Positions 1 to 22,081 of a stretch of 64,000 nt of DNA are shown in pieces. The position numbers and the translations under genes are program-made. The notes under the pieces were generated by a model that was given only the letters and a program-made list of their open reading frames with translations, had not been told where the DNA came from and did not search any database. Every line of letters starts with the position of its first letter. Within the stretch, counting starts at the first letter, position 1. The DNA is from Rhytidiadelphus loreus (taxonomy: Eukaryota > Streptophyta > Bryopsida > Hypnales > Hylocomiaceae), in assembly GCA_947034895.1 (NCBI GenBank), contig OX344761.1:24564863-24628862 (forward strand). The letters are read 5' to 3'.

Positions 1-134
1 GTGCGCAGAGAGCACTCACCCTTACTAAAAATTGTTTTTTGTATATGAATGAATATTCTATTAATAGTAATGATCCTTCAACAAAAATTAGACTACTCTG
101 AACTAGGATCACTCGGCAAACCATCGTTCTTGGA

Positions 135-1058
135 TTAAGAACTGCTATTTGTTGCCTCCTTGGCTGCCTCCTTGGCTTTCAACTTGGCCAATCCTCTGAA
201 GATATCCTCGCGTCGAGAAGGCTTGGGTGATCCACTGTCTTTACTGAAAGTATTGAACATCCCCATCATCATTAAATCCTTGGCCTCTCTCTTCCGCTTT
301 CGTTCACGTCACGGAATCTCGGTATTGGAAAGAGACCTAGAACCTCGAGGAGGCGGGAGTGGTATCGATCTATTCACAGTGCTTATGTACGGATCGGCAG
401 TTGTTGTCGATTGAGTGTAATTTGTCCGCCGTATGTCTCGAAGAGTCGTTCGGCGGGAAATAGGTACAGCCGAAGGCAAAGATACTTCGCCCACGGATTT
501 TGAGGGGAACGAGATAGGAATCTCTACGAGGCGTGGAACCTGTTGTGCTCTGCATGCACCCAACGGTACCTCATTGATCCGATCCCCAACCTTGGAATCC
601 ACATTGAACTCCACGCTCTGGACAGCCTGATGACAGATTGTCACCGGCAACAATACTCCATCCTCGAGACGAGGATCCATACCCCGCTCTTCGTCATCCG
701 CATACAATTTCCTGTGCGGTGTGTTTGGGGTTCGCAAAGTCGGCGACTGTGAACGCAATCGACTAGGGGTGGAGCTGGCCCTCTTCATTGGCGACGGTGA
801 GCAAATCGGTGTCCTCACGGGACCCCGACTAGGTGGGCTATCTACCACGCCTTCCTCCACATTCCCCTTTGAGAAGTCGATGGCCGCCGAAGCTGCATCG
901 GTGGCCGAGCCCAGGAGGTAAGGCTTAGAATAGGAGGACGGCATGAAGCTCCCTCCAATCGAGCCGGACCTCATTGAAAGTGACACGTCCGATCCAGACA
1001 GTAAGCTCCTCGTCAGTGGTTCCCTCTGTTGGAGAAAGTGTAGAACGGATCCTCCGAC
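135..1058 (-). pseudogene. Last exon of a Ser/Pro-rich, basic-tailed protein, interrupted by one in-frame TGA
   Basis: The frame is open from a plausible acceptor (CTATAG before 1058) down to a TGA at 309-311. It then continues in the same frame through a Lys/Arg-rich stretch (RKRKREAKDL) and a tail containing REDIFRGLAKLKAKEAAKEA to a TAA at 135-137. The upstream part is rich in SP and TP dipeptides (for example SPSPMKR and RSQSPTLRTP), which looks disordered and phosphorylatable. The TGA lies between two basic stretches and is one C to T change from CGA (Arg), so I read it as a nonsense mutation. An alternative is that the protein genuinely ends there. A palindrome copy at 658-678 is translated in frame as DPRLED. 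No family is recognised. It could be the 3' end of the same gene as the phosphatase-like frame just upstream (1347-2381), but no joining splice is certain. Confidence 0.45.
658..678. repeat. Palindrome copy inside the exon (CATCCTCG / CGAGGATCC form)
   Basis: Arms ATCCTCG and CGAGGAT are separated by three bases. The copy is read on the minus strand as Pro-Arg-Leu-Glu-Asp, the same reading phase as the copies in the acidic tail gene at 2909-3313. Confidence 0.6.
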
Positions 1059-1093
1059 CTATAGCAATAGAAGTGAGCATACATCCCCCACAA

Positions 1094-1152
1094 TTATCCT
1101 CGACCCAAAGATAACACACATCCCTCCACAATTATCCTCGATCCAAAGATAA
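1094..1152. repeat. Two decayed palindrome copies downstream of the phosphatase-like gene
   Basis: Copies at 1094-1114 and 1132-1152 keep a good left arm (TTATCCTCG) but have a decayed right arm (CAAAGATAA). They sit in a short direct duplication of about 38 bp. Confidence 0.6.
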
Positions 1153-1346
1153 CTCAACATGGAAGACAAACACATGTTGAACAAAACAATACAACCCAAA
1201 GAGGCCAGAAATCTTGATTAAATTTCAAAATTTTACTAATTCACAAAAATGAAATGTACAAAAAAATCCGTATTCACAAGAATAATGTACAACGAGTTCT
1301 ATGATTGACTGAGACACTGAGAAGTCTATTTCTCCCTTCATCTCTC

Positions 1347-2381
1347 TTATTCAATCACTAAATTCATCCCCCGCAACACGAATCGCGACTCGAATGCCTT
1401 GACGGACATCCTCATCCCATCTAATATATAATTGGCTTGATCGTCTGATGCGACCAAGGGCACCACACCTATGCGGTTCCGATCTACGAACTCACGCAGG
1501 CGTCCGAGTGGACACTCTTCGTGTAGTTTCTTCAGCCACGGAATGAGAGTGCCGACGAGCACATTGTCTCCACGCATGTACGGGTTCCAGCTCTCAAGGT
1601 ATATGCAATTCCCGTTCTCATTGAGGATGCCCTTTTGCGGAGAATCATCGATGAGAATGGTATTGTCCTTGTTGAAGGAGTTGGGATCCTGAGGGTCCAG
1701 GAACAATTCTTCATCAAGCACTTTGAAGAGCAGAGTCTTCCATGGACTCCTAGCCTGATGAAGAAATTTCCCTTCCGAGGTTTCTACCCTCCTGCAGTTG
1801 TCCTGACCTAGGATGTGGTAGGGAGCCTTGCAGTTCTGGAAGAGGAAACTGGCAACGGGCTCCACCATCTTCTTGAACATGGAGCTCCAAACTACGACGC
1901 GGCTCGAAATCTTTGAAACCTTGTCTAAGAACTCGCGCACATTGGGACGAACGAAGACGGCCTTCGTCCCAATGAGGGTTGGGGTTCGATGGGAGAATAC
2001 ATTATCTCGGACTGTGTAATGTTTTTTCTTCTTATGGGGCCCCTGACCCTGGCTCTCACACAGCACTCCGTTCAAATCGAACACGATATTCAACCACTTC
2101 TGTCGCGGTTGGACCACTAACGAGGACACACTCCGCGGCACTCTGTTTTTTCGACCTGCCGTTACTACCTGATCAAACACAACACGAAAGAGATGTAGAT
2201 ACCTGTTGAAAGGCAGAATCAGGCGACCCATAAAACGGAGAAAAGCATGGAACCCCACTAAGCGACTGCAGAACCCCTCCGTTAAGTGATTGTTTGAGTG
2301 CCAACGGGCGGTGCACACTTCTAAGTTGTCCGCGCTGGGCACAAACATGGGCAATATCAATTCATTAGACACTACACGCAT
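1347..2381 (-). CDS. FCP1/NLI-interacting-factor-type HAD phosphatase-like protein, catalytic Asp replaced
   Basis: The 344-residue frame carries the ordered motifs of an FCP1 homology (CTD small phosphatase-like) domain. Motif I is VFDLNGVLCE (residues 100-109). It is followed by FVRPNVREFL (143-152), VVVWSSMF (162-169; motif II Ser at about 166) and ILIDDSPQK (242-250; motif III acids at 245-246). The family dephosphorylates phospho-Ser/Thr using a DxDx(T/V) motif. Here the second Asp (residue 104) is Asn, so catalysis is expected to be weak or lost; this is inference. The first 90 residues match nothing I recognise, and the true start may lie in another exon. The gene starts about 290 bp after the stop of the ParB/methyltransferase-like gene on the same strand. 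The frame is uninterrupted, unlike its neighbours. Confidence 0.72.
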   Translation of the reverse strand: MRVVSNELILPMFVPSADNLEVCTARWHSNNHLTEGFCSRLVGFHAFLRFMGRLILPFNRYLHLFRVVFDQVVTAGRKNRVPRSVSSLVVQPRQKWLNIVFDLNGVLCESQGQGPHKKKKHYTVRDNVFSHRTPTLIGTKAVFVRPNVREFLDKVSKISSRVVVWSSMFKKMVEPVASFLFQNCKAPYHILGQDNCRRVETSEGKFLHQARSPWKTLLFKVLDEELFLDPQDPNSFNKDNTILIDDSPQKGILNENGNCIYLESWNPYMRGDNVLVGTLIPWLKKLHEECPLGRLREFVDRNRIGVVPLVASDDQANYILDGMRMSVKAFESRFVLRGMNLVIE

Positions 2382-2667
2382 TGAAGAGAAGTTTGAGATA
2401 TATTTATTTCAAAATAATTATTGATACACCCGGTCTAACGGTTTTGTTGATCTCTAGTCGATTGTATACAAATACCAACTACAGCCCGTTGCGGTATCTA
2501 CACTATGCTACAACGCAATCACAAAGTGGCAGTTCTTCCACGCTTCACAATCAGAGACTGTACACTCCCTCCTGTCAGACAGAAGGAATGGATATGAGAG
2601 TCTCTCACTAGAAACATGAACATGATGGAAGACAAAACAAACATCCATCATATCACATTAGACAGAC

Positions 2668-4197
2668 TCATGAAATATCGTAGGGGTCTGAGGATGGACG
2701 AGAGTGTACCTGGCCGAACTCATCATCCAAATAATCCCCATAGTCGACAGTCTCTTCGTCGTCGTTTGGGGGATTTTCGAATTCTATCTGCGTCTCCGGT
2801 GCACGCGGCTCAGTCGGAGGGGGGACAAGATCCGGTACAACATCACCCTCCTCTTGGGTCTCCGGGACCGACTCCGCTTGCGCCTCCACAGTAGGGGACT
2901 GCCTCAAATTATCCTCGCCTCGAGGATAATCCACTGCCCTATCAGTTACTTCATTCCCTGCTCCAAGAACCGACTCCGTTGGAGTCTCCAATGTAGGGAG
3001 CTGGCTTGGATTATCCTCGCTTCGAGGATAATCCACTGCACTATGAGTTCCCTCTATCCCGGTTCCAAGGACCGACTCCGCTTGCACCTCCAATGCTGGG
3101 GGCTGGCTTGGATTATCCTCGCCTCGAGGATAATCCACTGCAGTATTAGCTCCGTCTGTCCCAGTTCCAAGGGGAGCAATCTCTTCTTGAATCTGTTGAT
3201 TTGCTCTATCAACTGGAAGAGAGGATCCCTGCTCTTGTTCCATTGGAGGAGGAGAAGGGGGAGCAATATCCTCTTGGGCGGCAGGTAGAGGATCATCTTC
3301 GCCTCGAAGATAACCCTCAGAGCTCAGATCAGTGGACTGGTGAGCAGTGACTTCTGAAGCACCACCAACGTCATGCGCATCAAGTTGGCTAGGTTGAGAA
3401 GTAGAGGGATCTTGTGATCGTGTTCTGAGAGAAACATTCTCTTCACGCAATTTCTCAAGTTCCTTCTTCAACGCTTCCTTCTCCGCCAGCTCGTCAGCCC
3501 TTCTTCTTGCCTCCTCAGCCCTCTTGAAGGCCTTCCTCTCCTCTCTTTGCCTCCAAAAATCCTTAAGTTCCTGCTTCACAAGACGAAGAGGAACTTGAAT
3601 TGGATCTGTAGCATCCCCGGACATGGAATAACGAGGAGGTTGAGGCTCTACAAGTGAGGGTTCTCCTTGGCTTCCCTTAGAGGTTCCCGCACCATCATCA
3701 GTCGGACCATCGTAGTTGAAGTCTTCCAAATCCGAATACGTGTCCTCCACGTCGCTGATGATGATGTCTGGTATAAAGCCCTCCACGGGCTTCCTTGCCG
3801 TCTTCTTCTTCTTGCGTGCGACTGCATCTAACTCTTCCTTGTCCTTCGACGCTGATTCTGGCCCGCGTCTCCCTACGTGGAAGTCCTCTGCGTTGATTTC
3901 CACATTTCCTCCTTGGACAACGTTCGTGTTTGTCCCAAATTCATTGATTCCAAAGTTGGCAGCCCCCTCGTCAGTAGAAAATTGTCGTGGGACTTCCACG
4001 TTGCGATCGACGGAGGGTGTGGAATCCGAGTCCAGATCTGGAGTTTCAAGGTTACGCGGACGCACGTAACCAGGAAGATATGGCAAGTTCTCATGGCAGA
4101 AATCGTTCATGTTTAATTTACTTCCATAAGTCGCCATATCTCGAAGCTTTTGTGAAGCATGCCTCTCAGTAAGGCCATAGTAATAGAGGCCATACAT
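2668..4197 (-). CDS. Exon D of the ParB/methyltransferase-like gene: end of the methylase-like fold plus long acidic tail with palindrome-encoded repeats
   Basis: The exon begins right after an acceptor (TTGTAG) and joins in phase to the exon ending at 4390. Its first 25 residues (YGLYYYGLTERHA...KLRD) continue the C-terminal strand and helix of an N4/N6 methylase-like fold. The remaining 480 residues are low-complexity and acidic. A charged coiled coil (KRAEEARRRADELAEKEALK) maps near plus positions 3410-3590. Three repeats of 32-35 residues each contain YPR-G/S-EDN, spelled by palindromes at 2909, 3011 and 3113; a fourth palindrome (3293) spells LRGEDD. The frame ends with TGA at 2668-2670. 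No enzymatic role is suggested for the tail. Because two upstream exons of this model carry disruptions, the gene as a whole may be a pseudogene. Confidence 0.6.
   Translation of the reverse strand: MYGLYYYGLTERHASQKLRDMATYGSKLNMNDFCHENLPYLPGYVRPRNLETPDLDSDSTPSVDRNVEVPRQFSTDEGAANFGINEFGTNTNVVQGGNVEINAEDFHVGRRGPESASKDKEELDAVARKKKKTARKPVEGFIPDIIISDVEDTYSDLEDFNYDGPTDDGAGTSKGSQGEPSLVEPQPPRYSMSGDATDPIQVPLRLVKQELKDFWRQREERKAFKRAEEARRRADELAEKEALKKELEKLREENVSLRTRSQDPSTSQPSQLDAHDVGGASEVTAHQSTDLSSEGYLRGEDDPLPAAQEDIAPPSPPPMEQEQGSSLPVDRANQQIQEEIAPLGTGTDGANTAVDYPRGEDNPSQPPALEVQAESVLGTGIEGTHSAVDYPRSEDNPSQLPTLETPTESVLGAGNEVTDRAVDYPRGEDNLRQSPTVEAQAESVPETQEEGDVVPDLVPPPTEPRAPETQIEFENPPNDDEETVDYGDYLDDEFGQVHSRPSSDPYDIS
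2909..3313. repeat. Four in-frame palindrome copies in an exon
   Basis: 21-bp copies at 2909-2929, 3011-3031, 3113-3133 and 3293-3313. The first three have the CCTCG/CGAGG arms and the fourth the CTTCG/CGAAG arms, so arm changes are paired. Spacing is 102, 102 and 180 bp, all multiples of three, and the reading frame stays open. Confidence 0.9.
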
Positions 4198-4259
4198 CTA
4201 CAATACAACAAGCAGTTGTCAATACTTTTTTTCACACTATAATGATCCATCCTAGGAAA

Positions 4260-4374
4260 CTATCTTCGACCCGAAGATAACACAACAACAGATAAAGATG
4301 CATGCAACAGAACAATCGAACATAATAATACACCAGAAAGAGATCCTAAGCAATTATCTTCGAGTCGAAGATAA
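4260..4374. repeat. Two palindrome copies in an intron
   Basis: Copies at 4260-4280 and 4354-4374 have CTTCG/CGAAG arms. They lie in the intron (4198-4389) between exons C and D of the ParB/methyltransferase-like gene. Confidence 0.85.
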
Positions 4375-4389
4375 ATCATAGAGCCGCAC

Positions 4390-6830
4390 CTTTGTAGCGA
4401 TCACGAACTTGGAGCCTGTGTAAACGCCGATGACGTTCTCTCCTGTCACGGCGAAACTCTGAAGAATGTTGATATAGAACTCCATCCTCAGCTCACTCGG
4501 ATGGACCCTATATTTTGCCTCCGTGTTCTTATGGAAATCAGTGTAGTAAGGTATGTCATCGGTGCAATATACCTTCTTCACTGCCTCCTTGTATTTTGGC
4601 TCCCCGTCATTGCGTTTCTTCATGACGAAAAGGAGCTTCACGGGGGGTGGCACTGCTCGGTTGGTCAAGTTGTCCAACCTCTCAGCCTTACTTGGCAGGT
4701 AGGTGGACACCCTGACTTCGTACCCTGACATCTTCGATGCAGCAAATTTCTTGGCCGCGTCCATGTCATATGAACTCCCCACAATCCATAACCATACGTC
4801 TGGAGTAGACAACACCGGCCTCAGGTGATCATCCAAAAAATTTAGTAATGGCAAGCAAGGTGGACTGTCACCGGATCCCGGATTTGGCCTCGGGAGGATT
4901 CGGAAATCAATCACAGCGAGGCCAAGTTCTCTGTTGACGTAGGGCCATATGTGGGTCGTCACTAGACCTTGGGGGTAGCATTGGTGGCCTCGGATAAACA
5001 CATCTCCTCCCGATGGCTCCACTCGCTTCTTCATCTTCAAGAAGGTCTTGAACATGGGATAGACCATTGACAATTTTTGATTGTCCTTGTAGTCTATGGC
5101 CGTCTTCTTCTTCGCCTCGTTGGTAAGGCGTTTTACGAAGAATTGGTTGGGTATTGCGGTGAGGAGGAAATCCCACGATGCCGACGAAAAGAAGTTGTCC
5201 AGCTTCCATTGCCTCCACTTCACATCGATGACATCCCCATTTCTGTCCTTGAATTTCAAGGACTTATCGAGGGCCATGAACTCCTCCACAATGACTTTCT
5301 TACGCTTCCTGCGCTCTACCCAATGCTCGGCTTTATAGTTGTCCTCGCACAGGATCTTTGCCGCCCCCACAGAGACCTTTGGATAGTCTCGTGTGCGTCC
5401 CTCTGTTCTCCCAAGCAGATAGAGGACATAATCCTTGAGATCTTTGTCCGTGAAGTGTCCCATGTGCTTGAAGAACTCCCTTTTGAGCGAGAAGTTCTTT
5501 GCGTTGAAGGTCTTCGCGCTGTTGTAGGATTTCCGTGACACGGGATCAATCAGCGATCCATCAGTGTGCTTTGTGAGGAACTCCTCCCACATCTGATAGG
5601 TCTCATCGGCCAAGGTTATTATTCGAATTTCATTTTTGACATCGGACGCCAACTTGACTTGAGCGCCCTCCTTGTCCGGGTTGATGCTTCCGTATCGAAT
5701 CATGACACCGTCCACAAATTCCTGCTCAAACAGATATTCACGGAATCAGTATGCATACTAGTTCACTTAGAAGATTTTCAAACAATTATCCTCGGCCCGA
5801 GGATAACTACTTTCGAGACCACATAATCAATAGTCAGAAATTGCAGCACTCTATAAGAATACGTGAGGACAACTAGAGCATGCACGTAAATTTTATCTTC
5901 GCCTCGAAGATAAAAGAGGAGTACCTTATACACTGCGACGTTGTAAACTGCTTTATTTCCTCTCACCAGCCCCTCGCTGTCTGTGTTGGTAGGCCGCTTA
6001 AGTGCTTTCCAAACCTGCCTACATGCGGATATTTGATTCCCCCATGTTGGCTGACTATGAACGAGGTGGTTGGAGGCATTGTACCACTTCGAAATATCTG
6101 TGAGCTGTGTCGGGTCTCTAGTCCAGACGATCACAGCCTCCCATGTCTGCAACTCGTCCTTGCGTGTCTCGCAGCATCCGCCTTGTTGAAGCATTTTGGC
6201 TGCGGTGACACTATGTTGGCCGTCAATTATGTAGAAGCCACCGTTTTTGATGGAATCCCAATCCTTAGGACACTCCTTCAAAAGCTTCTTATTGGCGTCC
6301 ATAGGGGTCAAGCAAATTTTCTACCTTTGCTGCTTTGAACCAAGATGAATGAGAGTCTCCTTTTGCTCATCCACCAATTTCATTTCAAGCTTCCGGATTA
6401 TGTATCTTTCTGGGGCGAGGAAGCATTGCTTGATATTAACAGAGAATACATGTGGATGAAAAATGAAGCACTTGCCATTTTTCTTCCAAAATTCCGACTG
6501 ATATGCAGCTACAACTTCGTGTTTCTCGATTGGCTGCGTACCGGCTAGCTTCCGGGTATTCACGTTCGTGAGTATCGAACCTGAACTGCCGGCGGTAGTA
6601 GGACGACTGTCCGTCACGGGTTTCTTGCGTTTCTCACCAAGCTCACATGTACTCGTGTTCGGGTTCTTTTTCTTCTGGGCCTGCGCGCGGGCCGTTCCTC
6701 TCCCACTTCCTCTACTCCCTGTGCGGCCGCGCATACCAGACGCTGATCTCGTCTCATCGGCATTATCCGGCCTTTGCTAACCACGACCTTGACTCGCTCG
6801 AGCAGGCCCTTTCTGTACATGTTTATTAGC
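4390..6830 (-). pseudogene. Exons B and C: ParB-like (DGQH) domain fused to a degenerate N4/N6 DNA-methyltransferase-like domain
   Basis: Exon B (5925 to about 6830) and exon C (4390-5721) join in phase (TATAAG | GAATTT) across GT-AG. Exon B contains FYIIDGQHSVTAAK (plus about 6195-6240), the ParB/DGQHR-type box. Exon C contains VIDFRILP (about 4900) where a DPPY motif would be, WLWIVGSS (about 4790), then RVHPSELRMEF (about 4490) and ENVIGVYTGSKFVIATK (4390-4445), which aligns by eye with the HP...DPFxGSGTT...GIE end of permuted DNA methylases. Exon D continues this with YYYGLTER. ParB-methylase fusions are familiar in phages and bacterial mobile DNA. Here DPPY and FxGxG are not preserved, so catalysis is doubtful. 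TAG stops interrupt the frame at 6321-6323 and 6777-6779; both fit CAG to TAG. The methylase call is my pattern match and unverified. Confidence 0.5.
5786..5913. repeat. Two palindrome copies in an intron
   Basis: Copies at 5786-5806 (CCTCG/CGAGG arms) and 5893-5913 (CTTCG/CGAAG arms) lie in the 203-bp intron between exons B and C. Confidence 0.85.
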
Positions 6831-6878
6831 TTCCTCTGTCAGCTTATGAAACATGTATCCGACTTTTCTCGACGTCAC

Positions 6879-7360
6879 CCTGGCGTTCTTTTTATGCCAT
6901 GGGTGGTATCTTGTATGAAGTCTGTTGCTAAGGCGTCAAGGTTTCCCGAGTGCAAGTCGACGATGAGGTTGTTGAAGTCAAAAACACCCATAGGGTCGTC
7001 TTCATGGCAGACGATTGAATGAGTATGTTTCGTTTCAATTCCTGCGTTGTCGATTCCTTGCAGAGTGATGACAAGGTACTTGTCCTGATGGTTCTCAATG
7101 AGGGCGACCTTCTCATTTAAGTTCCAATTCACGTACATCCCTGTATCCTTCTCTCGGTGACGAAGGTACACGTAATCCTTGGACTGGTTCACACCGAATG
7201 TCCAGGACTCGACGACGGCTTTGAATTGCCAGAGCTTGCCGTATAGCTCTGGCATCTCCGATATGAAGGGCTCCTCTTCCACCCATTTTGTGAAAGGCTC
7301 AATGAATGGGAGAGTAGCCGAGTAGTCGTATTCAGACTCAGCCACCATGTTGATATGTAT
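6879..7360 (-). pseudogene. Exon A: N-terminal part of the ParB-like gene, followed by a frameshift
   Basis: The exon begins after an acceptor (ATGCTCAG); the best ATG is at 7348 (MVAESEYDY). About 157 residues follow without a recognised family (for example ESWTFGVNQSKDYVYLRHREKDTGMYVNW). The frame ends KRTPG-stop at 6875. Another frame over the same bases (KKNARVTSRKVGYMFHKLTEEANKH) runs on into the RG-rich start of exon B, so a small indel near 6890-6900 is the simplest reading. A splice at CCAGG|GTGACG was tested but gives the wrong phase for exon B. The assignment to the same gene rests on adjacency and strand. Confidence 0.4.
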
Positions 7361-7403
7361 CTGAGCATAGTAAACCACTATGATCAGAATTATAATTTGA
7401 TAT

Positions 7404-7424
7404 TTATCTTCGAGGCGAAGATAA
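7404..7424. repeat. Palindrome copy just upstream of exon A
   Basis: CTTCG/CGAAG arms with central AGG, 44 bp beyond the acceptor of exon A, probably in a leader intron. Confidence 0.85.
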
Positions 7425-7598
7425 TAGATTAGAGAATTCCGGATTAATGCATTTTGAGTGGACCATTATCAATGCAGGCTGCACATGATATCCAGAGCAG
7501 TGTAGAATGAGCAGACTATATTCATAATTGATAAGTACGATCCTGGATATATAGTATCACATTAACTAAGATTGGTAACTACGATCTTGGATCTCTAT

Positions 7599-7983
7599 TT
7601 ATCCTCGGACCGAGGATAATTGATTTTTAATTTGGTTTGGTTTATTTTTATTGTGTTGTCTTCGTTGCCGTTTATCCTCGGTCCGAGGATAAATGGTTCT
7701 TCTTGAGTTTTAGTGTATTTTATTTGACTTGTTTTTTTTGTCATTTATCCTCGGACCGAGGATAAATGGTTCTTAATTAGTGTTGGTGTATTCTATTTGG
7801 GTTGTCTTCGTTGCCGTTTATCCTCGGTCCGAGGATAAATGGTTCTTCTTGAGTTCTAGTGTATTTTATTTTACTTGTTTTCGTTGTCATTTATCCTCGG
7901 ACCGAGGATAAATGGTTCGTAATTAGTGTTGGTGTATTCTGTTTGTACTTTTTTGGTACTATTTATCCTCGGTCCGAGGATAA
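7599..7983. repeat. 73-bp-period palindrome array 5' of the ParB-like gene
   Basis: Six 21-bp palindromes start at 7599, 7672, 7745, 7818, 7891 and 7963 (steps 73, 73, 73, 73, 72). All have CCTCG/CGAGG arms, and the central triplet alternates GAC, GTC, GAC, GTC, GAC, GTC. The intervening 52 bp are similar T-rich text (GGTTCTTCTTGAGTTTTAGTG), so these are tandem repeats. The array lies 250-640 bp upstream of the likely ATG at 7348. Confidence 0.92.
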
Positions 7984-8114
7984 TTGGTTCTTATTTAGCT
8001 CATGTGTTCTTTATTTGTGTTAGTTTTGTGGTTATTTACCCAGGGGCCGACCGTCAATTTCTGTATTTTATTAGTTTTGTGGTTTTTGTATTTCATTAGT
8101 TGTGTTCATGTAGG

Positions 8115-8156
8115 TTATCTTCGGGTCGAAGATGATTATCTTCGACCCGAAGATGA
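8115..8156. repeat. Two abutting palindrome copies
   Basis: 8115-8135 and 8136-8156, both with CTTCG/CGAAG arms; central triplets GGT and ACC are reverse complements. Each has GATGA instead of GATAA at the right edge. Confidence 0.85.
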
Positions 8157-8639
8157 TTTCTATTGTTCAAAGAAGAATAACTGAAGAAAATGAAGTCAGA
8201 AACCCTATTTCTAATACTAATCATCTGTGCTCATGTAGAATGCAAACATAGATTACAATCTTGATTGAATTATAACGTGCATAGAAACAAAAATGATATC
8301 ACGCATTCAAACCAAGAGCAGTGGTAGACACAGAAATTGAAAAGTTCCTCACCTCCTGCACACTTCCTGCAGCAAATTATCGAATGCTTCAAAAAAATTT
8401 CAACACTTCCAGATGTAGTCAACTCTGCCTAAACCCTAATGCAATGACAAATGAACAAAAATCACAAACCCGAATTCTAAAACCTAAGCAACTAACACTG
8501 GCATGGAAATTGGAACAAGATAAACAATTTGAAAACACAACAATGATTTGAAACAAGAATATGAATAATTGCAAACTACATGCCCAAAGAACAAAAAAAA
8601 TAACTACATACACAAAGAATAAATCAGAAAACTTGGTGC

Positions 8640-9225
8640 AAAATATTGGGAAGATAGAAAGTCACGTTGAAACTGGAGCTGGAAAGTCACGCTGAAACTG
8701 GAGTTGGAAACTCGTGCTGCAGCTGGAGCTGGAAACTCACACTGCTGCGTGCAACTCCCGTGCACGAATCGAGAAACCCCCGCGCTTGAAGATCGAAAAC
8801 CCCGCGTCTGAAGTTGAAAACCCCGCGTCTGAAGTTGAAAACTCCACGCCTCAAGTTGAAAACTTGCGCGCATGAATGTCGAAAACTCCGCGCCTGAAGC
8901 TGAAAACACCGCGCCTCAAACTGCAAAGAAACCGCACCCTCAACTCGAAAGACACCGCGCCTGAAGCTGAAAACACCGCGCCTCAAACTGCAAAGAAACC
9001 GCACCCTCAACTCGAAAGACACTGCGCCTGAAGCTGAAAACACCGTGCCTCAAACTGCAAAGAAACCGCACCCTCAACTCGAAAGACACCGCGCCTGAAG
9101 CTGAAAACACCGCGCCTCAAACTGGAAGTAAACCGCGCCTCAAGTTGGATTGAAGCTGGAAGACACCGCGCCTGAAGAAGATTGAACTAAACCGCGCCTG
9201 AAACCCCGCGCGCCCCAAACCAAAG
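8640..9225. repeat. CG-rich minisatellite, 67-bp higher-order period
   Basis: The word CCTGAAGCTG starts at 8893, 8960, 9027 and 9094, an exact 67-bp step. A shorter unit of about 18-24 bp (CGCGCCTGAAGTTGAAAACC type) fills the rest from about 8640 to 9225. Minus-strand frames through it give repetitive FQLQTRGF-like peptides that I do not take as a gene. Confidence 0.85.
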
Positions 9226-9339
9226 CTACAAAAACAAAACGCGATTGAAGACGGAGAATCACCCACGCCGGAAGTTGGAAAAATGTTCGTGAAAAAAAAT
9301 TGGAAAACTTTCGGAGGAAAGGGACGACGGACCAACCCT

Positions 9340-9400
9340 AGTTCCAACCCTCCTTCCCCGAACCTCCTTCCCCGAACCTCCTTCCCCGAACCTCCTTTCC
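9340..9400. repeat. Short tandem repeat, CCTTCCCCGAACCTC units
   Basis: About four copies of a 16-bp unit (CCTCCTTCCCCGAA) in a row. No gene is seen in this stretch. Confidence 0.75.
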
Positions 9401-9565
9401 CAGCTTCAGTCCTTCCCAATCCTACTCCTTTTACCCTACAGGAGTGTATGTCGCCAAACTTGCGGAATGTATGTCGCCAAACTTGCCTCCCCAGAACCTA
9501 TTTCTTCTAAGCTTCAAGTCCTATACACGTAGGTGTCTTGAACCCTTGAACAGCATGTGGGTCAT

Positions 9566-10110
9566 AATGAAAATCATCTATTTTTTCACCATGCGAATTG
9601 TTTGTTTAAAAAAATGATAAAGTTCTCATATGAAGAGAAAGTACTGTAGATGATCTTTCCTTTGCACTCAAATTTTGGAGGATGAATAGTTGCATTTTTG
9701 TCCGACACAAAGAGATTTCTGTCATCCATCAACCAAAAAATGGTCTGGCATTATGCATGGTCTACAAAATGTAAGAGAACTTCATCCAATTCAATTTTTG
9801 TAGGTCCCTATTTTCCAAAGTAGCATTTGATTTTGAAGAATTGAAAATTCAACCACAAATTCAACCCCATGACATTTGGGCTCTCTAAATGTTCCAATTT
9901 AAAAATAAAAAATTAACCTTTGAATGTCTGGACGGTCATCATGGAAATCATTTGTTTTGTCACCGTACAAATTGTTGGCTTAAAAAAATGAAACATCAAC
10001 AGATTGTAGTTGAAACTCTAATTGGAAGACAAACTATTGTAGTTGATCTTTATTTTTCACCATAAATTTTGGAAGATGAATAGTTACATTTGTGTCCGGT
10101 ACGGCAAGAT
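9566..10110. repeat. Diverged direct repeat, about 370 bp apart
   Basis: Segments at about 9566-9725 and 9938-10110 align: AAATCAT, CACCATGCGAATTGTT / CACCGTACAAATTGTT, GTAGATGATCTT / GTAGTTGATCTT, TTTTGGAGGATGAATAGTT / TTTTGGAAGATGAATAGTT, then GTCCG. Confidence 0.75.
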
Positions 10111-12261
10111 TGTTTCTCATTCATTTATCAAGAAATGGCTTAGCAGTTGTTTAGGGATTAAAGAAAGTAAAGAGTCCACGTAATGGGACTAAGAGATGTT
10201 GAAGACATGTATGAAGCAATTGTGCAAAGTGTGTTTCATTTCTTCTCATCCCATAATTTATCTCTTTTAGACTTTTTCACGTAATGTAGACATTTCCTTA
10301 TTTCAAGAATTTCGGAAAAAATTCCATATCCATTGGGGGGGGGTATATTTTCTAATTTAAACAAATTTGAATAAAATTTAATCAATAGTATTTCTAATTT
10401 GTAATGTACCTAACACTCTAAATAACCAAGGTTTTTTTTTTAGCTTCTTGGAATTCATTGTAAGTTTCAAATGAATCTAAGCATCTTTAGAACTTATACA
10501 CCAAAACACAATTTCCAAATTTCAAACCCTATTCAAGGCTTACGTAAGATTTTGAGCATTCCATATACTAAAATTTTACCCTAAATACAAAGTTTAGTAA
10601 ATGTAACCAAACTTCTAAAGTATTGTCATGAATAAAAAAATAATTAAATAATAAATAATTTAGTTTTTTCTATGCTATTTTTTTAAAATTATAAAGAACT
10701 TTTACTTTTTAGATGATCGTAATCTATAAAGGTCTAAACACCATTTTTTTTTAAGATTAAACATTTAAAAAGGTATGGAATAACTATTAAATGGCACAAG
10801 AAAGAAAATGTAGAAGTTCAAAATATTTTGAACTAGAATTTAGGATTCTTAAGTGAATAAATTTGGTGCCATTTGTTTGGTAAATCAACAAAACATTAAA
10901 ATTAAGTATTCATGTTTTGTAGTTTAAAGAACTATTATTTCATACATAACTTGCACTTTTTGAATAATTATGTGTTTGAAGTACAGAAGATGTAATAAAA
11001 GAATTTCTAAAACTTGTAGAGTACTAATTTTTTATACAATTTAGCGAGTCATTGTATGGGATACATTATAATACATTCATTTCTAGGAGGTGAACCTCTC
11101 ATGAAGATTATTTATGTGACATTGAAGTCGTTCAAGGCTCTAAACCATGATGGAGTTAAAAATAATGATTGGTAGCAAATGAATGGAAAGTCCATCATTC
11201 ATTTCAATGTACTAACAAAGTAGTCTAATTTGAAGCCAATTATGCTCCAAATCATGGTTTGGGATGCCATGTAGGTGGACATGACGACTTCTTAGAACAT
11301 GGGTCTCTACATTTTGTACACTTCACATAATTATTAAGCTTTTAAAAATGAGTATGGATCCTACTTTGTATAGTTCTAGTTCTCATACTTTCTTTTTGAA
11401 ATATTCTAAGCGTGTGCTTTTTATTTCTTTTATCTTCATAAAAGTTTAGTTTTTTTTCATTGTAGTTCTTCATAGTGTTCTGCAAACTTTATGTTTTTTC
11501 ATCCAAATCATTCTAATTTAAAAAACAATTGAACAAAATTATATATTACACTGAAGAATCATAATTCTTTCAAATTTATACAAAAATTTAACTAGTACAA
11601 TATGTTGTTGATCTCCAATACTTATCCTCTTTAAAATTTCATAGCTCTTATGATTTTAGTTACATAATAAAAACAACATAATTACCTTCATTTTTCATTA
11701 GTTGCTAATGTATTGTACAAGACAAATAGCAAGAATTTGATGTGCTCATACGTAAATGCAAATTTCTTAGAATGAGTTTCAACATTTATGGAAAATAAAA
11801 CATAACAAGTACCGCATTTTATAGAATTAAATGTTAAAAAATTCAGAATTGTACATTGTTCTTTGTTTTCAAAACAGAAGCTCAAAGTTCTATATTTTTT
11901 TTATAAAATTAAATTACAGATTCAAAAGTACCATGTAAGATTTTGGGTAATTTTGAACATGTACGGTCATTTAGATGTCCACAACATTGGAGATCCTTTA
12001 TTAATTGAAACTAGTAATATTCAAAATAAAAAGGCATTATGTTTTATTGCCTGCTATTATTTCAAAAATTTCAAGAATCCTAATAAAATTTATATAAGAA
12101 GCATCTTTCAATTTCAGGATATTGGAATTTCAGAAATAAATGTGAATTTTGAATATCATTTGCAAAATCAAGATGAATTCATGAACATATTCGTGAATGA
12201 ATTCAATGAACATTGAATTCATGAGCATGTAATTTACATTTGTTGAAGACTTTGCTATTGC
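10111..12261. other. AT-rich gene-free stretch
   Basis: No coding signal that I can support. Frames such as 11863-12216 are compositionally AT-driven and lack recognisable domains. A G run occurs near 10337. Confidence 0.6.
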
Positions 12262-12357
12262 TCCTAAACCTTAAACCCTGAACCCTACACCCAAAACCCT
12301 ACATTATAAACCCTAAACCCTGAACTCTAAATCCTAAACCCTAAACCCTAAACCCCA
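12262..12357. repeat. Degenerate interstitial telomere-like tract (CCCTAAA)n
   Basis: Repeated CCCTAAA, CCCTGAA and CCCTACA words, ending with three near-perfect CCTAAAC units. This is the Arabidopsis-type plant telomere repeat. It is too short and degenerate for a chromosome end. Confidence 0.85.
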
Positions 12358-12829
12358 AAATCCGAAAGTCCAAACTTCATTCCCTATTGAAAGCTTTCAT
12401 TACGTACAATTCTGTTTATAGCCAATACACATTGGACCCAACATGTGCCAAATTACTGTGGTTACCTACCGTAAACATTCATCTAAATCAGACATAAGAA
12501 TAAACTATTTAAAAAAAAGGTTGGTTGGTGGGTGGTGTATGAATTGCCAAATTTGCCAAATCCGAAATTCCGCTGTGACTACAAAGAATATTTCCACATT
12601 TTTGGAAAAAAGGTCACTGCCAAAAATTCCACAAAGTACAAATCCCCCTATTAAAATCTAAAAAAGATCGGCTACGTCAGATCCCATTTCTATTCATAAA
12701 AATTTCCATCACATTCCACATCATTGTCATTATTTGGGGGATGATAATGTCAATGGCCCCATAATCCGAGGAGGTACTTCTTCCCTACGCCCTCAAAATT
12801 ATGAAGATTTCAAATACTATTAAATTTCC

Positions 12830-12877
12830 CGCTCACATTCTCCCGCTCACATTCTCCCACTCACATTCTTCCGCTAG
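12830..12877. repeat. Short tandem repeat in the DUF7869 gene upstream region
   Basis: Three to four copies of a 14-15-bp unit, (C)CCGCTCACATTCT. The pyrimidine-rich DNA that follows could be a 5' leader of the gene at 13952, but no start site can be fixed. Confidence 0.65.
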
Positions 12878-13289
12878 TGTGTGCATCGACTCTCTTCCTC
12901 GAGCACCTCATTTCCTCTCTCGTGTTTTCCAGTATTCCCTCCTCCGTGGCCTCTTGCAGACATTGCTACCGCACGGCCTTTGAACATATGTTTTTGCAGT
13001 GCATTTACAAGTTTATGTGACTAATTTGCTTAGTTTTGCACGGGTTATCGTAAGTTTCTCTATTTCCCTTCTCCCCTTCTCACTGAATGCTAGATTTCTG
13101 CTCTTGGTCGTCAGTGTTAAGCAAAGTTACATGTAGTATTACGTAGTCCTCCGATTCTTGGAGTTTAGGGAATTCAGGTGTCAAATCTCAAATGTTGTCC
13201 TGTCTATGTTATGTTCAAGAATGAACAACCGATTCTTGCGCCGTAAATGTCGGAACTATAAATTTGTCTATCACATATATGCATGGAGG

Positions 13290-13610
13290 TTATCCTCGGG
13301 TCGAGGATAACCACAAACATGAATAGATATTCAGAAACATGCATGCAGGTTATCCTCGTCTCGAGGATAATTTCAAACATGCAAGGAGATTAACCTTGAG
13401 CCTAGCATAATCACAAACATACATGGAGATTATCCTCGGGTCGAGGATAATCTGAAACATGCATGAAGATTATCTTTCATCCGAGAATAATTTCCAACAC
13501 GCACCGAGATTATCCTCGACCCGAGGATAATTTCCAACACGCACCGAGATTATCTTCGACCCGAGGATAATCTCCAACACGCACCGAGATTATCCTCGAC
13601 CCGAGGATAA
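13290..13610. repeat. 40-bp-period palindrome array 5' of the DUF7869 gene
   Basis: Copies start at 13290, 13350, 13390, 13430, 13470, 13510, 13550 and 13590, in 40-bp steps after the first. Those at 13390 and 13470 are decayed. Most have CCTCG/CGAGG arms; the copy at 13550 is mixed (CTTCG with CGAGG). Spacers are AACATGCATGNAGA or AACACGCACCGAGA. The array sits 340-660 bp upstream of the ATG, mirroring the array 5' of the ParB-like gene. Confidence 0.92.
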
Positions 13611-13763
13611 TCACATACATACATAGAATATGAATGATAACCATAGACAAACATAGTCATTCATTGACATTTGAATTGATATACAGAGTTCATGTACATA
13701 ATAAGTGTGACACTCCAATGTCGACTGTGAGAATACATATTATCTCTCAATCTTGTCCGCCAG

Positions 13764-13910
13764 GTATCTTCGAATCGAAGATACATTTTGTTTTCTTACT
13801 CCTACTACCTACTCCAAAATGGTATACAATTTTACCCTCCAACTGAGGTTGCTTTGCTCCCTGTTTTGTCAGTGTGTTCTACTTATTTATTATCCTCGAC
13901 TCGAGGATAC
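13764..13910. repeat. Two further palindromes in the DUF7869 leader
   Basis: 13764-13784 (GTATCTTCG/CGAAGATAC) is a symmetric variant with the outer base pair also changed on both sides. 13890-13910 has CCTCG/CGAGG arms. Both lie in the probable leader intron, whose acceptor (TTTCACGCGTAG) abuts the start codon. Confidence 0.85.
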
Positions 13911-13951
13911 TCATAATAGTATGAATTAATTTTTTTTCTTTCACGCGTAGA

Positions 13952-16801
13952 ATGGATACTCCAGATGCCAACGAGTTTACAATTCCAATGCCAACTTTGC
14001 CGCCGGGTGTCGCAACCTGCGAGGGATTTCCTCGAGCTTCTTGGTATACAAAATGCGTCACACTCAGAAATGAGGAGGGGGTAGAGGTGGCAAAAGGGAT
14101 TTGTCATAATGTTGATGCAGATCTCGTCATTGACATGGACGGGCAGCCACTCGGTGATGACCGGGTTGCAATTCAAATTGCAGAGTCTTTGTGTGAGGCA
14201 GATGTTCCGTCGGAGTGGATGTGGTCCATGCACTCCTGGCACATTTCCAGGGTCTACCTTAATGGTGCCAGCTTATATGACCACGAACAAACGCATCTCT
14301 TCAATACTGCAGTCTCTTCAAACGGTTCGAGGCGGCGTGTTCGGACTGGAGTTCGTTCCTATGAAAGCTCACGTGAGAGGACTGAGCCTACCAATCTCCC
14401 GAAGAAAGAAGCCCTCCTCACAGAGCAAGCAATTGCTGATGTTTCTAGTATGAAATGTTGCCAGAAGAATTGCTTGCAACCATTTCCACGTGGTCAGATT
14501 CAAGCTGTTCGGTCTCTACTTCATATTGATGGTGGAGTGTTCTGGCGCAAGTCACATCTGCTTGACGTGCAAAAGCAAACCCACACTGATTCCAATGGAA
14601 GGGACATGATTACCTTGGCAAACCATGAAATTTGTTCGGTTGCTTGGTGCGCCATCCATGGAGTATCGAAGGCTACCTTTTATAGATACAAGAAGATGGC
14701 AAAAGATGACCAGAAACCGGAGCATCATGGCAACCTTGGAATGAAAAAACCTCGGACACACACTTTGCAAGCAACAGCAACTCTTCGATTGTTAGTGGAG
14801 AATGAAGCGGACACGATGCCTCACAAATCGAGGACCCTTGAGTCTGGAGAGAAAGTCCCCTCCATGGTCCTACCGTCTGCATTTCGTTGGAAGGACAAAT
14901 TGCCACAGATTAACAATGTCAATTCCTCACTTCAATTGCAAAATATTTCGGCTAGTGGATTGAGCAACATACGTCGTCAATTTTTTCCAGAGTATGCTCC
15001 AAAGGCTAGAGGAGATAGTTTTTCTCGTTGTGGAACCTGCGATAGATATAGGCAACTTAAGAGTGCTTGCACTCCACGTTCACGAGCGCAAGACGTGTGG
15101 TCTAACAAATTGAGAGTGCACCTATCGGGGCAAAAGGCGCATAGGGACTTGTACTATAGAAACCGTTCAATGTCTGAGATGTATCCTGACAAGGTTTTGA
15201 CTATAATCCATGACAAGATGGATCACTCAAAGACTGCTTCCCCTCATTACTCGCACAAGAGTAAGGGAAATGATTCTTTCATGAAGATGCCTGTCGCTGT
15301 TACAGGCATGATTGCTCATGGTCATGGAGATGTGCGATATGCACACTATGGCTTGGACATCTTCCCAACAGACTCCAACCATACTATTGGGTCCATTGCA
15401 AAATTATTGCGAGATCTAGAGTCCCAACCAAAGCATTCATCTCGTCAATTGTTTGTAGGAGGAGAGCGTTCTGAACTGACAGAGGCTTTGTTAATAGGTT
15501 CAGAGATTTGTACGGACTCTCTCGGGTCCCCCCCTGAAGTATTGGTGGAAGCTCAACCTCTTTCTCCAACATTGACTCTTCAGCTTGACAATGCTTCTGG
15601 CGACAACAAGAATCGGTGGGTTTTTGCATTCTGTTCTCTTCTTGTCTATAGAGCTATTTTTCGAGAGATATACATTAATTTCCTCATTGTTGGACACACT
15701 CATGAGGACATTGATGCTCTATTTGGTCGTTGGAGCACTAAATTGAAGACGAATGACTACCCCACACTTCCAAGGTTGATGAAGTCTTTCATGGATTGTG
15801 AAACACAACCCGTAATTCCTCATCTCATTGAGGAGGTTCCTGATTTTAAGCGATTTGTGGACGGATACTTGCATACAGGCGATGATTCTCTACAGGGTCA
15901 TTCTCAAGCGCAACAGTTTAAATTTTATAAGGATTCCAATGGGTGGCCATTGATGTAGTACAAGATCCTTTGTACCGATGTTGATTGGTTGCCGAAAGAG
16001 GGTGGGGGGATTCGCTTGTGGAAGGAGACAATAGATGGGCACCCTAAAGTACCGAGGGGTAGTCCTCTACCTTTGCCACCGCAACAAATGCGTTGCTTTG
16101 ATGAGATTTGCAAGGGTTTAGATGGGTACATTGCATTGTGGGGGGCAATGGGAAATCAAGACTTATCTGGCGAGTTTAGGAGGAAGAATGAGCCGGTGCG
16201 GAAATATTGGGAAGGTGTGAGAAGTGCTCTCAATGCTCCGCTTGTGGTACATGAGACATTGCAGCATGGATTTTGGCCAAATTCTCGTGTTGCTGATGAG
16301 GTGGAAGACCAATACCTAGATGATGGTACGATGTGTGAGGAGTTTGCAGAAGATGCACCTTTTGTTGGTCGTAGGCGTGATCGTCCACCTCCTTCATTTC
16401 GTATTGGCCGTGATGTATATGCAGGTTACTTAGTTGTTGTGCGCCCCGCTCACGGTGACCTCCGTCCATTTTGGCTTGCTCGGGCTTTAACAAATCCTAA
16501 TCCAGATCCAGGTCATGTCAATTCGATTCAACTTCAATATTGGACACCTACGTCTTTTCATCACACCAATGAAGAAACATATGCTGGGTGGGACACAAAA
16601 CAAGGGAATTCTTGGTGCGAGGATAAGGCTATCTCTCCGAGTTGGACGCATACAAACTGCATTATGACTGCTTGGAAGCCACGTTTCAAAGAAGGCACTT
16701 CTGATCCAAAAGTTAGAATTCCCAAAACACAAATTGCTATCATCCAGACATCAGTGGATGCATATGTATCTGGTGAAAGCAATAATGTATCTTCGGAGTG
16801 A
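13952..16801 (+). pseudogene. DUF7869-type RNase H-like (transposase-like) protein, broken by one TAG
   Basis: The ATG follows a pyrimidine tract and AG. The frame runs 668 codons to TAG at 15956-15958 and then, in the same frame, to TGA at 16799-16801 (950 codons in total). A Cys-rich segment (CCQKNC; later CGTCDRYRQLKSAC) precedes the core. The core shows IIHDKMDHSK (acids at 421 and 424), LQLDNASGDNKN (Asp 546) and VGHTHEDIDALFGRW (His 582 and 584, Asp 586 and 588). This spaced acid/His set is what I know as the DUF7869 region, which resembles DDE/RNase H-fold transposases; that activity is inference. The stop at PLM-stop-YKIL is one C to T change from CAG, and the text after it reads naturally (DVDWLPKEGGGIRLW), so I read it as a nonsense mutation. 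The C-terminal 280 codons carry no recognised domain. Confidence 0.72.
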
Positions 16802-16807
16802 AGATGA
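16787..16807. repeat. Palindrome relic containing the terminal stop codon
   Basis: GTATCTTCGGAGTGAAGATGA is a decayed copy of the family. The TGA that ends the DUF7869 frame (16799-16801) lies inside it. Confidence 0.5.
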
Positions 16808-17590
16808 ATAGTTTGTAGGCATAGGAAATCATGAGGAGTTTTGGGAGTTTGTACGTTATTTTCTTAACTTTAGGGAGGATGACAAAAAAGTATGGAAAAA
16901 AATAAATTATAAAGAGTTGTAGAAGTTGATAGTTTCTTTGATTAGGGCAAAAAAAAATATAATAAAAAGTTGTTAGAAAAAAACATGTGGAGAAGATGAA
17001 ATAGATTTAGTTTTTTTATTCTTTTAGTTCATTGTTTTGATCTTTTTTTATATTATTTTAGAATTTGATGTTATAGATGTTGTATAATATAATATATTTT
17101 TATTTTTATTTCTTGTATGGTATTGTGTATTTTGTAAGTTCTTCATTAGAATTCTATTGTCTATGACATTTGTTATGGAACACGATGAGTACTAATGTTT
17201 TCTATACAAAGTAATTATGAACTTCTCTATCTAAGCATATGTCAAATTCTTTACTTTGACATTGTAGTTTTTGATCAGGCTAGGTGTACAAATGTATTCT
17301 ATCATGGATGATTTCAAAAATCTCTACCTCACTATATGTCAAACTATTTACTTAGATATTTTAGTTAAGCACTTATTATAAATGGTTCTAGTTTCCCATC
17401 CAAAATCCCTCCTTTCAACGTCCTTCACTACTATTTTTGTCCTCCAATTTCTTATACTTGTACAAATTCTTTATTCTTCAAGCAGTTTATGGTCTCAATT
17501 TTTTGAATTGTCTCAATTTAATGGACTCTTCTACATACTAAATTTAGGAAGATGATTAAAATGAGAATCCACATTGTCTCAATTTAATGA
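16808..17590. other. AT-rich gene-free stretch
   Basis: Probable 3' flank of the DUF7869 gene. No coding signal or clear repeat is seen. Confidence 0.55.
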
Positions 17591-18530
17591 ATATGGCCTT
17601 GAGAGCGGAAAGCGGATTGGGCGCCGCTCATCAGTGACTTGGTTTCCAATCTGGTGCTCCGGGTAGGGAAGAGTAAGCCCACGCCTCTGTCACCCTACTT
17701 GTTCCACTTGTACCATCACGACCAAGTTCTCACTAACACGGACTCACGGAGGAGAAGACTTGGCGATCCCAGAAGTCTATTTTGAAGTATGGGGAGTCGG
17801 AGACGGATTCGAACCGGAAGAAGAAGGATCTGGATTCGAACCGGAAGATGATGAGACGGATGACGAGGAAGAGTCATTGAAGAGGACGAAACGATAGAAG
17901 ACAACGCCTCCGCACGGAAGAGGAGCGCCACCGGGTGAGGCTTCAGAACCGGAATGCCGACTGGATAAGAAGCCGGTCACAGAGGAAAGTGATCCAATTG
18001 ACCCTTTTAACGGTCTGGTGGAGACCCTCTCCAACATCCGGGCAAATTGGAAGTATAAAAAGATCACACTAGAGAATATTGGGAAACTGGTGGGAGCCCA
18101 ATCGGATAGTCTGCTACTCGGAAAGGTAGCTAACTACATCAGTAATCCGGAGGAGAACCGGAAATTGAGAGCTGAGAACCGTCGACTTCAGGAGGAAGTT
18201 GACATGTTGAAGGGGGAGATCACCACCTTCAAGGAAGATATGGCCGCCACTAGGGAGATGGCGGATGCGACCCAGAAGACAACGAAGATGATGAAGGAGA
18301 CATTTGGAGAATCCAGAATGTTGGTTGCCAAAGCGAAGCTGTTTGATGAAGGGTTTCTGGTGGACAAGAAATTATCCGATTCCCGGATGGTCCGTATTCT
18401 GACAAACTTCGCCGAGAAGGTGGAAGCAGTTATGAGGGAAGCTCGGGAAGCTGCGGACTGGATGGAGATGAGCAACGTGAAGCTGATTGGAACTGTACTC
18501 TCAAGGAGTATCTGTCTTTCGGATATCTCC
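17591..18530 (+). pseudogene. Broken coiled-coil protein gene (frameshift plus TAG)
   Basis: Three collinear pieces fit one protein. The first reads WAPLISDLVSNLVLRVGK, then SPYLFHLYHHDQVLT (17611-17738). After a frameshift near 17740, an acidic piece (VWGVGDGFEPEEEGSGFEPEDDETDDEEE) continues to TAG at 17895-17897. In the same frame, KTTPPHGRGAPPG leads to a 170-residue helical region with a coiled coil (ENRKLRAENRRLQEEVDMLKGE) that is open to about 18500. The TAG is one C to T change from CAG. GC content is higher than in the flanks. The family is not recognised; it may be a mobile-element accessory protein. The copy ends where a GAC-rich repeat terminus begins (about 18548), suggesting the element inserted into or beside it. 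Confidence 0.5.
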
Positions 18531-18544
18531 TTGCCAGACAGGGT

Positions 18545-19900: not shown

Positions 19901-20376
19901 CTTTGAATCAGTTTTCCCACCACATACTTTGAGATTTTGAAAATCCGAACGATGGATACAAAGGCATACTTATATTTGACAAGCAAGAAATTTTTGTTTG
20001 GGAAAATTTCAAAATCTGAGATTCCTATGACCTTCTGAAGTTTGAAGTTGCTTGGACGATGGGGTTTATAAAGCTTAAAATGAAAACAATCTCCACACAC
20101 CCTTGCTAATTGCCACCTCAGCATTCAACAACAACAAGTAGTGTCCTTTTCATTCAAGTCATTTGTATCTTTCATAGTTTCATGTGACAAAAAATCATAA
20201 GCAGTACTTACTCAAATACACCGAACTTTCAAAATGTATAATTATCATATTTCACATATATGGTCATACATCTACATTGCATAATTAGGCCCTATATAGT
20301 GTGCACGCGTACATTCTCATTCTATATTTACTACATACCTCTATAGTTCTATGCTACTATAAAGTACGTTGAACTA

Positions 20377-21873: not shown

Positions 21874-22081
21874 CGTGATGAACTTCTTGTATGAATGAAT
21901 ATTCGCAAAATGAAATGATAATTTCAAGTTCAAGTGAAACTCAAACCAAAACTGAAAAAAATGGCAATAAGGGGCCCCCAAAATCGCACTCTTGCTTTCC
22001 CAAGAAGAGGAACCAATGGGGGCATGAACCACCAAGCTCTCCGCTTCACTCTTGCAATATGCAAGGGGGAAAACAAAAGTG

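Follow-up and report, generated by a model that had tools for sequence, protein, structure and literature searches.

The question raised by this locus is why a short palindrome should recur some thirty times in one group of moss genes and why its two arms should change together. The locus lies in a stretch of 64,000 nucleotides of Rhytidiadelphus loreus (contig OX344761.1, positions 24,564,863 to 24,628,862), which is called the window here. The palindrome has a 9-bp stem and a 3-nt loop. It is found in a cluster of genes. On the minus strand, these are a frame at 309-986, a NIF-phosphatase frame, and a spliced main gene that extends from near 7348 to 2668. The plus strand carries a DUF7869 gene, DUF7869 being a domain of unknown function. 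There is about an even chance, in our estimate, that the palindrome is a cis-acting RNA stem-loop in the pre-mRNAs of this mobile-element-like cluster. A fold, or copying from arm to arm, is favored over a plain homodimer DNA site because the base that tolerates change matches its partner. RNA is favored because copies recur after the 5' splice sites of two different introns.

The original prediction counted about 30 copies of the 21-bp palindrome and noticed none from 17 to 64 kb, and both statements hold. The degenerate 21-mer TTATCYTCGNNNCGARGATAA has 29 matches in the window at three mismatches or fewer, against 0.08 expected, and none of 100 shuffles reached 29. Two weaker copies bring the total to 31. 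One (658-678) came from a scan with the inner 17-mer and has its seven inner pairs unbroken. The other (13390-13410) came from a repeat search and is a decayed unit of a tandem array. The 17-mers at 204 and 16608, with two mismatches each and inside the copy-bearing region, were left out of this total. All 31 copies fall between 0.66 and 16.8 kb. From 17 to 64 kb there are only two 17-mers with two mismatches (49399 and 56752), which is chance level, as the scan expects 1.46 over the window. The spacer at 8.2-13.2 kb holds no copies at three mismatches or fewer. As predicted, copies occur in exons, introns, and leaders, yet within the window they are restricted to the one cluster. This confinement, and the recurrent spots 12-32 nt past 5' splice sites, go beyond the original prediction. 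Many copies are arrayed in tandem, with periods of 21, 38, 40, 73, and 102 bp, and decayed copies exist at 13390 and 13470. Each arm has 6-7 core bases that are invariant or nearly so, and one pair between the arms is variable. The copies are as follows, with the variable pair given as C/G or T/A.

658-678, minus strand: palindrome, coding (DPRLED), C/G, outer two pairs broken.
1094-1114, minus strand: palindrome, both odd pairs U.G on the minus strand, in tandem with the 1132 copy (38 bp).
1132-1152, minus strand: palindrome, tandem duplicate of the 1094 copy.
2909-2929, minus strand: palindrome, coding (YPRGED), in a 102-bp tandem repeat, C/G.
3011-3031, minus strand: palindrome, coding (YPRSED), in the 102-bp tandem repeat, C/G.
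3113-3133, minus strand: palindrome, coding (YPRGED), in the 102-bp tandem repeat, C/G.
3293-3313, minus strand: palindrome, coding (YLRGED), T/A, one U.G on the gene strand.
4260-4280, minus strand: T/A copy, the second within intron 2, lying 62 nt ahead of the 3' splice site, with a single U.G when read on the gene strand.
4354-4374, minus strand: first palindrome of intron 2, starting at intron position +16, T/A.
5786-5806, minus strand: C/G copy, the second within intron 1, lying 64 nt ahead of the 3' splice site.
5893-5913, minus strand: first palindrome of intron 1, starting at intron position +12, T/A.
7404-7424, minus strand: palindrome upstream of the first ATG of the main gene, T/A.
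7599-7983, minus strand: six palindromes (7599, 7672, 7745, 7818, 7891, and 7963) in an upstream 73-bp tandem array, all C/G, centers alternating GAC/GTC.
8115-8156, minus strand: two abutting 21-bp palindromes, T/A, with GGT and ACC as centers; pair 2:20 is C.A when read on the minus strand.
13290-13610, plus strand: array upstream of the plus-strand gene, mostly of 40-bp period (13290, 13350, 13390 decayed, 13430, 13470 decayed, 13510, 13550 with T.G, and 13590).
13764-13784, plus strand: palindrome with a compensated G-C outer pair; its first bases form the candidate 5' splice site CCAG|GTATCTTC.
13890-13910, plus strand: palindrome with a broken outer pair, located in the leader intron 40 nt ahead of its candidate 3' splice site.
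16787-16807, plus strand: weak palindrome (three mismatches) at the end of the DUF7869 frame, which may be a chance match.

The pairing of the arms was followed in 36 copies, the 31 of the window and five of a second contig, CADCWO010000074.1 (L014; 4,235 bases). L014 is filed in a Synechococcales (cyanobacterial) metagenome bin, where moss contamination is the likely explanation. Its protein P0001 bears a cyanobacterial name in public databases. Of the spliced main gene, L014 carries exon 1 and a portion of exon 2, and the protein is 34% identical to window exon 1 (C-terminal part). Four of its palindromes lie upstream of the ATG and the fifth lies in intron 1 at +21.

On the plus strand, the variable pair (6:16) is C-G in 23 copies, T-A in 9, C.A in 2, and T.G in 2. 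Both arms had been said to carry the same version almost always, and this is borne out by 27 of the 31 window copies, many of which are tandem duplicates and hence not independent. The outer pair is altered on both sides at 13764 (G-C), as had also been claimed, and at L014:2572 (C-G). Broken outer pairs are seen at 658, 13890, 16787, and L014:2310, and 4260 has a one-sided wobble there. Gene-strand orientation was taken as the strand of the nearest gene, which is minus below 8.2 kb and in L014 and plus above 13.2 kb. So oriented, the 28 distinct sequences of the window and L014 have CG at pair 6:16 in 15 cases, UA in 9, UG in 4, and no other combination. Over their whole stem, 95.2% of cells pair, compared to 92.5% after shuffling (0 of 500 shuffles as high). 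Cells changed on both sides number 11 against 4.0 when shuffled (0 of 500 as high), kinship being ignored, and the covariation score is 0.182 against 0.135 (1 of 500 as high). When the partner is slid to other registers, only 37.5-52.8% pair. Paired cells are 240 of 252 on the gene strand versus 232 of 252 on the opposite strand. Compensatory base changes, by which a structured RNA element is recognized, are present beyond chance. All eight stretches that were folded as RNA yield the stem, with z from -0.74 to -7.05. Rfam 15 gave no match at the gathering score in window positions 1-17000.

The center triplet, in contrast, is not almost random as had been stated. ACC or GGT is the center in 10 of the 36 copies. 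Centers also occur alongside their own reverse complements, with 46 pairs of this kind, where column shuffling gives 26.9 (none of 5000 shuffles reached 46). At 13430-13450 versus 13510-13530 and at 8115-8135 versus 8136-8156, the centers are reverse-complementary while the flanks of the tandem units run in one direction.

The genes that carry these copies are listed next, since the places of the palindromes are given by their exons and introns.

309-986, minus strand: open reading frame that holds the 658 copy; no Pfam match at E 0.1.
1347-2381, minus strand: NIF (NLI-interacting factor-like) phosphatase frame, Pfam E 5.4e-16, situated between palindromes.
5925-7348, minus strand: main gene exon 1, ParB-like, bounds approximate.
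5722-5924, minus strand: main gene intron 1, of 203 nt, with two palindromes; its bounds come from homology and GT-AG.
4390-5721, minus strand: main gene exon 2, amino-methyltransferase fold without the DPPY-type motif.
4198-4389, minus strand: main gene intron 2, of 192 nt, with two palindromes; homology sets its 5' end and consensus its 3' end.
2668-4197, minus strand: last open frame, taken as main gene exon 3; no Pfam match; four coding palindromes inside.
13764-13950, plus strand: 187-nt candidate intron in the leader of the DUF7869 gene, with two palindromes; its splice sites were assigned only from the consensus.
13952-16801, plus strand: DUF7869 gene, here in two frames (13952-15958 and 15989-16801).

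In the predicted structure, main-gene exon 1 encodes a ParB-N fold. Of the 45 exon-1 relatives, 23 were scanned, and none of their Pfam matches at E 0.5 was to a ParB model. The window exon-1 piece likewise had no ParB Pfam match, only DUF6551 at E 0.02, which is under the cut-off of that model. A helix-turn-helix was not identified in the main-gene protein, for which no dedicated search was made. Exon 2 encodes a class I amino-methyltransferase fold in the predicted structure. The catalytic [DNS]PP[YFW] motif is absent from all 28 aligned exon-2 rows and from all 57 relatives, some of which are partial. D-x-R replaces it at the expected place in 26 of the 28 rows, P0175 and P0190 being the ones that deviate. 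The DUF7869 gene of the window is broken into frames of 668 and 270 aa, and its longest relatives are unbroken at about 935-990 aa. Among the 120 DUF7869 matches listed (191 found), those with an organism name are from Ceratodon purpureus (2) and Physcomitrium patens (5).

Four large contigs (46150, 80586, 406742, and 606289 bases) have identical sizes for a DUF7869 match and for a spliced-gene match, where 0.0045 would be expected with jittered sizes. Because these contigs share exact sizes, the DUF7869 gene and the spliced gene are probably together in other genomes too. With this linkage and many divergent relatives, the cluster looks like a mobile element. Element ends were not found in a repeat scan of 1-20000, the sole search for them. 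By its own terms, the original prediction would fail if copies occurred only at fixed positions inside larger known transposons. The positions are partly fixed, and no named transposon was recognized for the cluster.

The placement of palindromes in introns was followed through database proteins that run past an exon end into the intron, with a read-through of at least 12 codons required. There are 45 exon-1 relatives, mostly 35-49% identical to the L014 protein. Of these, 39 reach the exon end and 27 read at least 12 codons into intron 1, where 20 are compatible with a perfect palindrome, 4 with one that has a single change, and 3 with neither. Intron 2 is entered to this depth by 16 of the 57 exon-2 relatives (11 perfect, 3 with one change, and 2 with neither). 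The palindrome with at most one change thus fits 24 of 27 and 14 of 16 tails, and 31 of these 38 need no change. No fit is seen in the read-through of P0005, P0013, P0020, P0218, and P0219. Outside the tails, the same dictionary gave 8 intact and 22 one-change matches in 39,247 residues, and 5 of the 8 are intron stretches before exon 2. As a control, the 120 listed DUF7869 relatives gave no signature matches (1.74 expected by shuffling) and one with looser patterns. The palindromes appear in all three reading frames of the read-through, and therefore the peptide is not the conserved thing. A pattern scan of genome contigs gave 13 stretches; L014 alone had more than one copy, and the other 12 were taken as chance. 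A viral origin was also considered and rejected. Viral-contig pattern scans gave 1 and 61 stretches with one place each, and no main-gene or DUF7869 relatives were found there.

The first palindrome in intron 1 of relatives starts at a median of +22 (quartiles 21-24, 25 introns) and lies within +12 to +32 in 24 of 25. In intron 2 the median start is +25 (quartiles 23.5-27.5, 15 introns), with 13 of 15 in the same range. These statistics omit P0036 (+23) and P0183 (+43). The window introns 1 and 2 agree with this pattern in having copies at +12 and +16, followed by second copies 64 and 62 nt before the 3' end. In the candidate leader intron of the DUF7869 gene, one copy is at +1, overlapping the 5' splice site, and a second is 40 nt before the 3' end. 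The chance figure for placement in the three introns, 1e-05, used a null defined after the positions were known and does not serve as a test.

The paired state is also kept in relatives. Clear C-G, T-A, and G-C versions of the variable pair are present at both intron sites. An A-T version is probably present as well, judging from SSSR followed by the frame end in P0018 and P0175. Where the frame reveals both arms as classes, all 15 strict matches agree (10 with P/L and E, 5 with R and D). A looser pattern in this frame adds P0181, which is matched, and the second copy of P0182 (NPRVDD), which is mixed. The arms change in pairs and this is kept in many relatives at two intron sites, which points to selection for the folded or symmetric form, or to copying of it, as the original prediction had proposed.

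If the palindrome acts as an RNA stem-loop, a protein would read it through the conserved bases TATC, TCG, CGA, and GATA, and the variable pair would have to be paired. The likely reader would be the element's own ParB-fold and catalytically dead methyltransferase-like protein. The main-gene protein is put forward because its gene holds copies in its introns, its upstream region, and its last frame, that is, solely by the company it keeps. The likely effect would be to regulate whether the element's own introns are spliced out or retained, and hence its expression. Copies in arrays could add binding sites. A broader proposal is offered tentatively. A plant mobile element may mark its own transcripts with hairpins at introns, upstream regions, and some exons, and the ParB-fold and dead-methyltransferase protein may read this mark. 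This would be an element-wide RNA self-recognition that controls splicing or escape from silencing.

A number of points weigh against the RNA stem-loop. Two pairs show a double change and eight further pair types occur, and neither count exceeds the shuffles (194 and 51 of 500). The excess of wobble pairs is weak, with U.G in 9 and A.C in 2 events of the window and L014 (one-sided p 0.033), duplicates having been collapsed to distinct events by hand. The addition of relatives makes this 10:4 (p about 0.09), and the A.C cases include P0183 and P0211. Transcription-linked mutation bias could be an alternative source of the U.G excess. Four of the eight fold z-scores are between -0.7 and -1.6. 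In the frame that shows both bases, the arms agree in only 12 of 19 matches of relatives. The other seven are P0038, P0039, and P0042 (U.G, one lineage), the true mismatches P0026, P0173, and P0211, and P0009, whose match at residue 27 falls outside the intron and was kept out of the intron evidence. Intron 1 of L014 contains a single copy instead of two, and array and coding copies have no tie to known splice sites. Read-through ends at the first stop, which favors copies close to the 5' splice site, and the relatives are phylogenetically non-independent. Finally, the inverted centers inside direct arrays (13430/13510 and 8115/8136) favor DNA-level hairpin copying. The wobble bias had been considered as proof of RNA, and this use of it was abandoned once the relatives shifted the ratio to 10:4.

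It is possible, at well below even odds, that the palindrome is instead a duplex-DNA site for an element-encoded protein, similar to parS or to the short motifs of Arabidopsis VANDAL transposons that anti-silencing VANC proteins recognize, with its arms kept matched by template switching in replication. The inverted centers would be accounted for by such hairpin copying. Among the forms offered in the original prediction, the protein-dimer site is the least natural, as homodimer half-sites need not covary at a base where several letters are tolerated. A homodimer site requires no match between arms at the variable base, so template switching must be added. Pairing extends barely beyond the 21-mer (22 versus 13.4 positions, P 0.03, 24 of 36 copies used), which is less than free arm-to-arm copying suggests. 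A DNA site also fails to explain why copies in two different introns recur at a similar distance past the 5' splice site, and the helix-turn-helix that a DNA-site protein might have was not identified, though it was not searched for by itself.

It is unlikely that the hairpins have no function and are a passive, self-correcting by-product of tandem duplication and template switching within the element. The many copies in arrays of 21 to 102 bp, the inverted centers, and the decayed copies at 13390 and 13470 would all fit such an origin. The retention of the core at two intron sites in relatives as divergent as those above does not, given the 8 intact matches found elsewhere. An ordinary coding repeat of the YPRGED type, palindromic by accident, can be dismissed: it would suit the five clear coding copies in one frame (658, 2909, 3011, 3113, and 3293) and is contradicted by the intronic or upstream position of most copies and by the read-through in all three frames.

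The moss palindrome can be compared with known systems. The likeness to ParB-parS is that the gene containing the palindromic sites also encodes a predicted ParB-N fold. The moss core differs in belonging to a eukaryotic element and in having 6-7 invariant or near-invariant bases per arm and a variable pair. The Rev response element is a protein-binding RNA hairpin. The L1/Alu 3' stem-loop is the protein-binding RNA hairpin of a mobile element (PMC5135761). In both, as is proposed for the moss, the element's own transcripts contain a stem-loop by which they are recognized. The moss case has many short near-identical copies in introns, upstream regions, and some exons, whereas those have one structure at one place.

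The literature compared here was of open license and mostly at the level of listings and abstracts. Within it, no description of this palindrome system was found, and neither was an account of ParB proteins in moss elements or of such intronic stem-loops. No open-license paper with the term DUF7869 was found. The nearest described case found is that of the VANC target motifs of Arabidopsis VANDAL transposons (PMC5735166, PMC10398659). The VANC21 motif has nine bases, YAGTATTAY (PMC5735166). Both systems have a short motif in introns and upstream non-coding regions, tandem repeats (expanding and contracting for VANC), and C/T-type variants (PMC5735166). VANC motifs sit in one transposon family, whereas the moss motif is in one mobile-element-like gene cluster and its relatives. 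The moss motif also differs from VANC21 in being a 21-nt palindrome with covarying arms, in having coding copies, and in its candidate ParB/methyltransferase-like reader. The terms "palindrom" and "inverted" are absent from the main text of PMC5735166, and no VANC was named in the Pfam scans, which were not aimed at VANC. Bacterial REP palindromes are dispersed, short (20-40 bp), extragenic, and prokaryotic (PMC3733652). They share with the moss palindromes that they are short and dispersed, and the moss palindromes are unlike them in being intragenic, in one plant gene cluster, and at recurrent intron positions.

Should the hairpins work at the RNA level, a selfish element could recognize its own transcripts by a repeated stem-loop whose arms covary and which is linked to splice sites. 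Should they work at the DNA level, the element may couple palindromic sites in a plant nucleus with a protein of the ParB fold. In either case, this would be a testable case of discrimination between mobile-element self and host and would give a candidate role to eukaryotic ParB and dead-methyltransferase proteins.

Other features are present in the window. The spacer between the divergent genes contains GC-rich tandem repeats of 21-23 bp and 67 bp at 8773-9143, without palindromes. It also contains a CCTAAAC-type array at 12263-12359, which resembles plant telomere repeats. An open frame of 552 aa at 20377-22035 weakly matches a protein kinase (E 7.5e-4, under the curated cut-off). A 161-bp tandem array of 7.9 copies is at 25090-26368 and a 219-bp tandem array of 6.0 copies is at 26956-28262. 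A single 1074-aa open frame at 48308-51532 has a SAC3/GANP domain and is likely a host gene.

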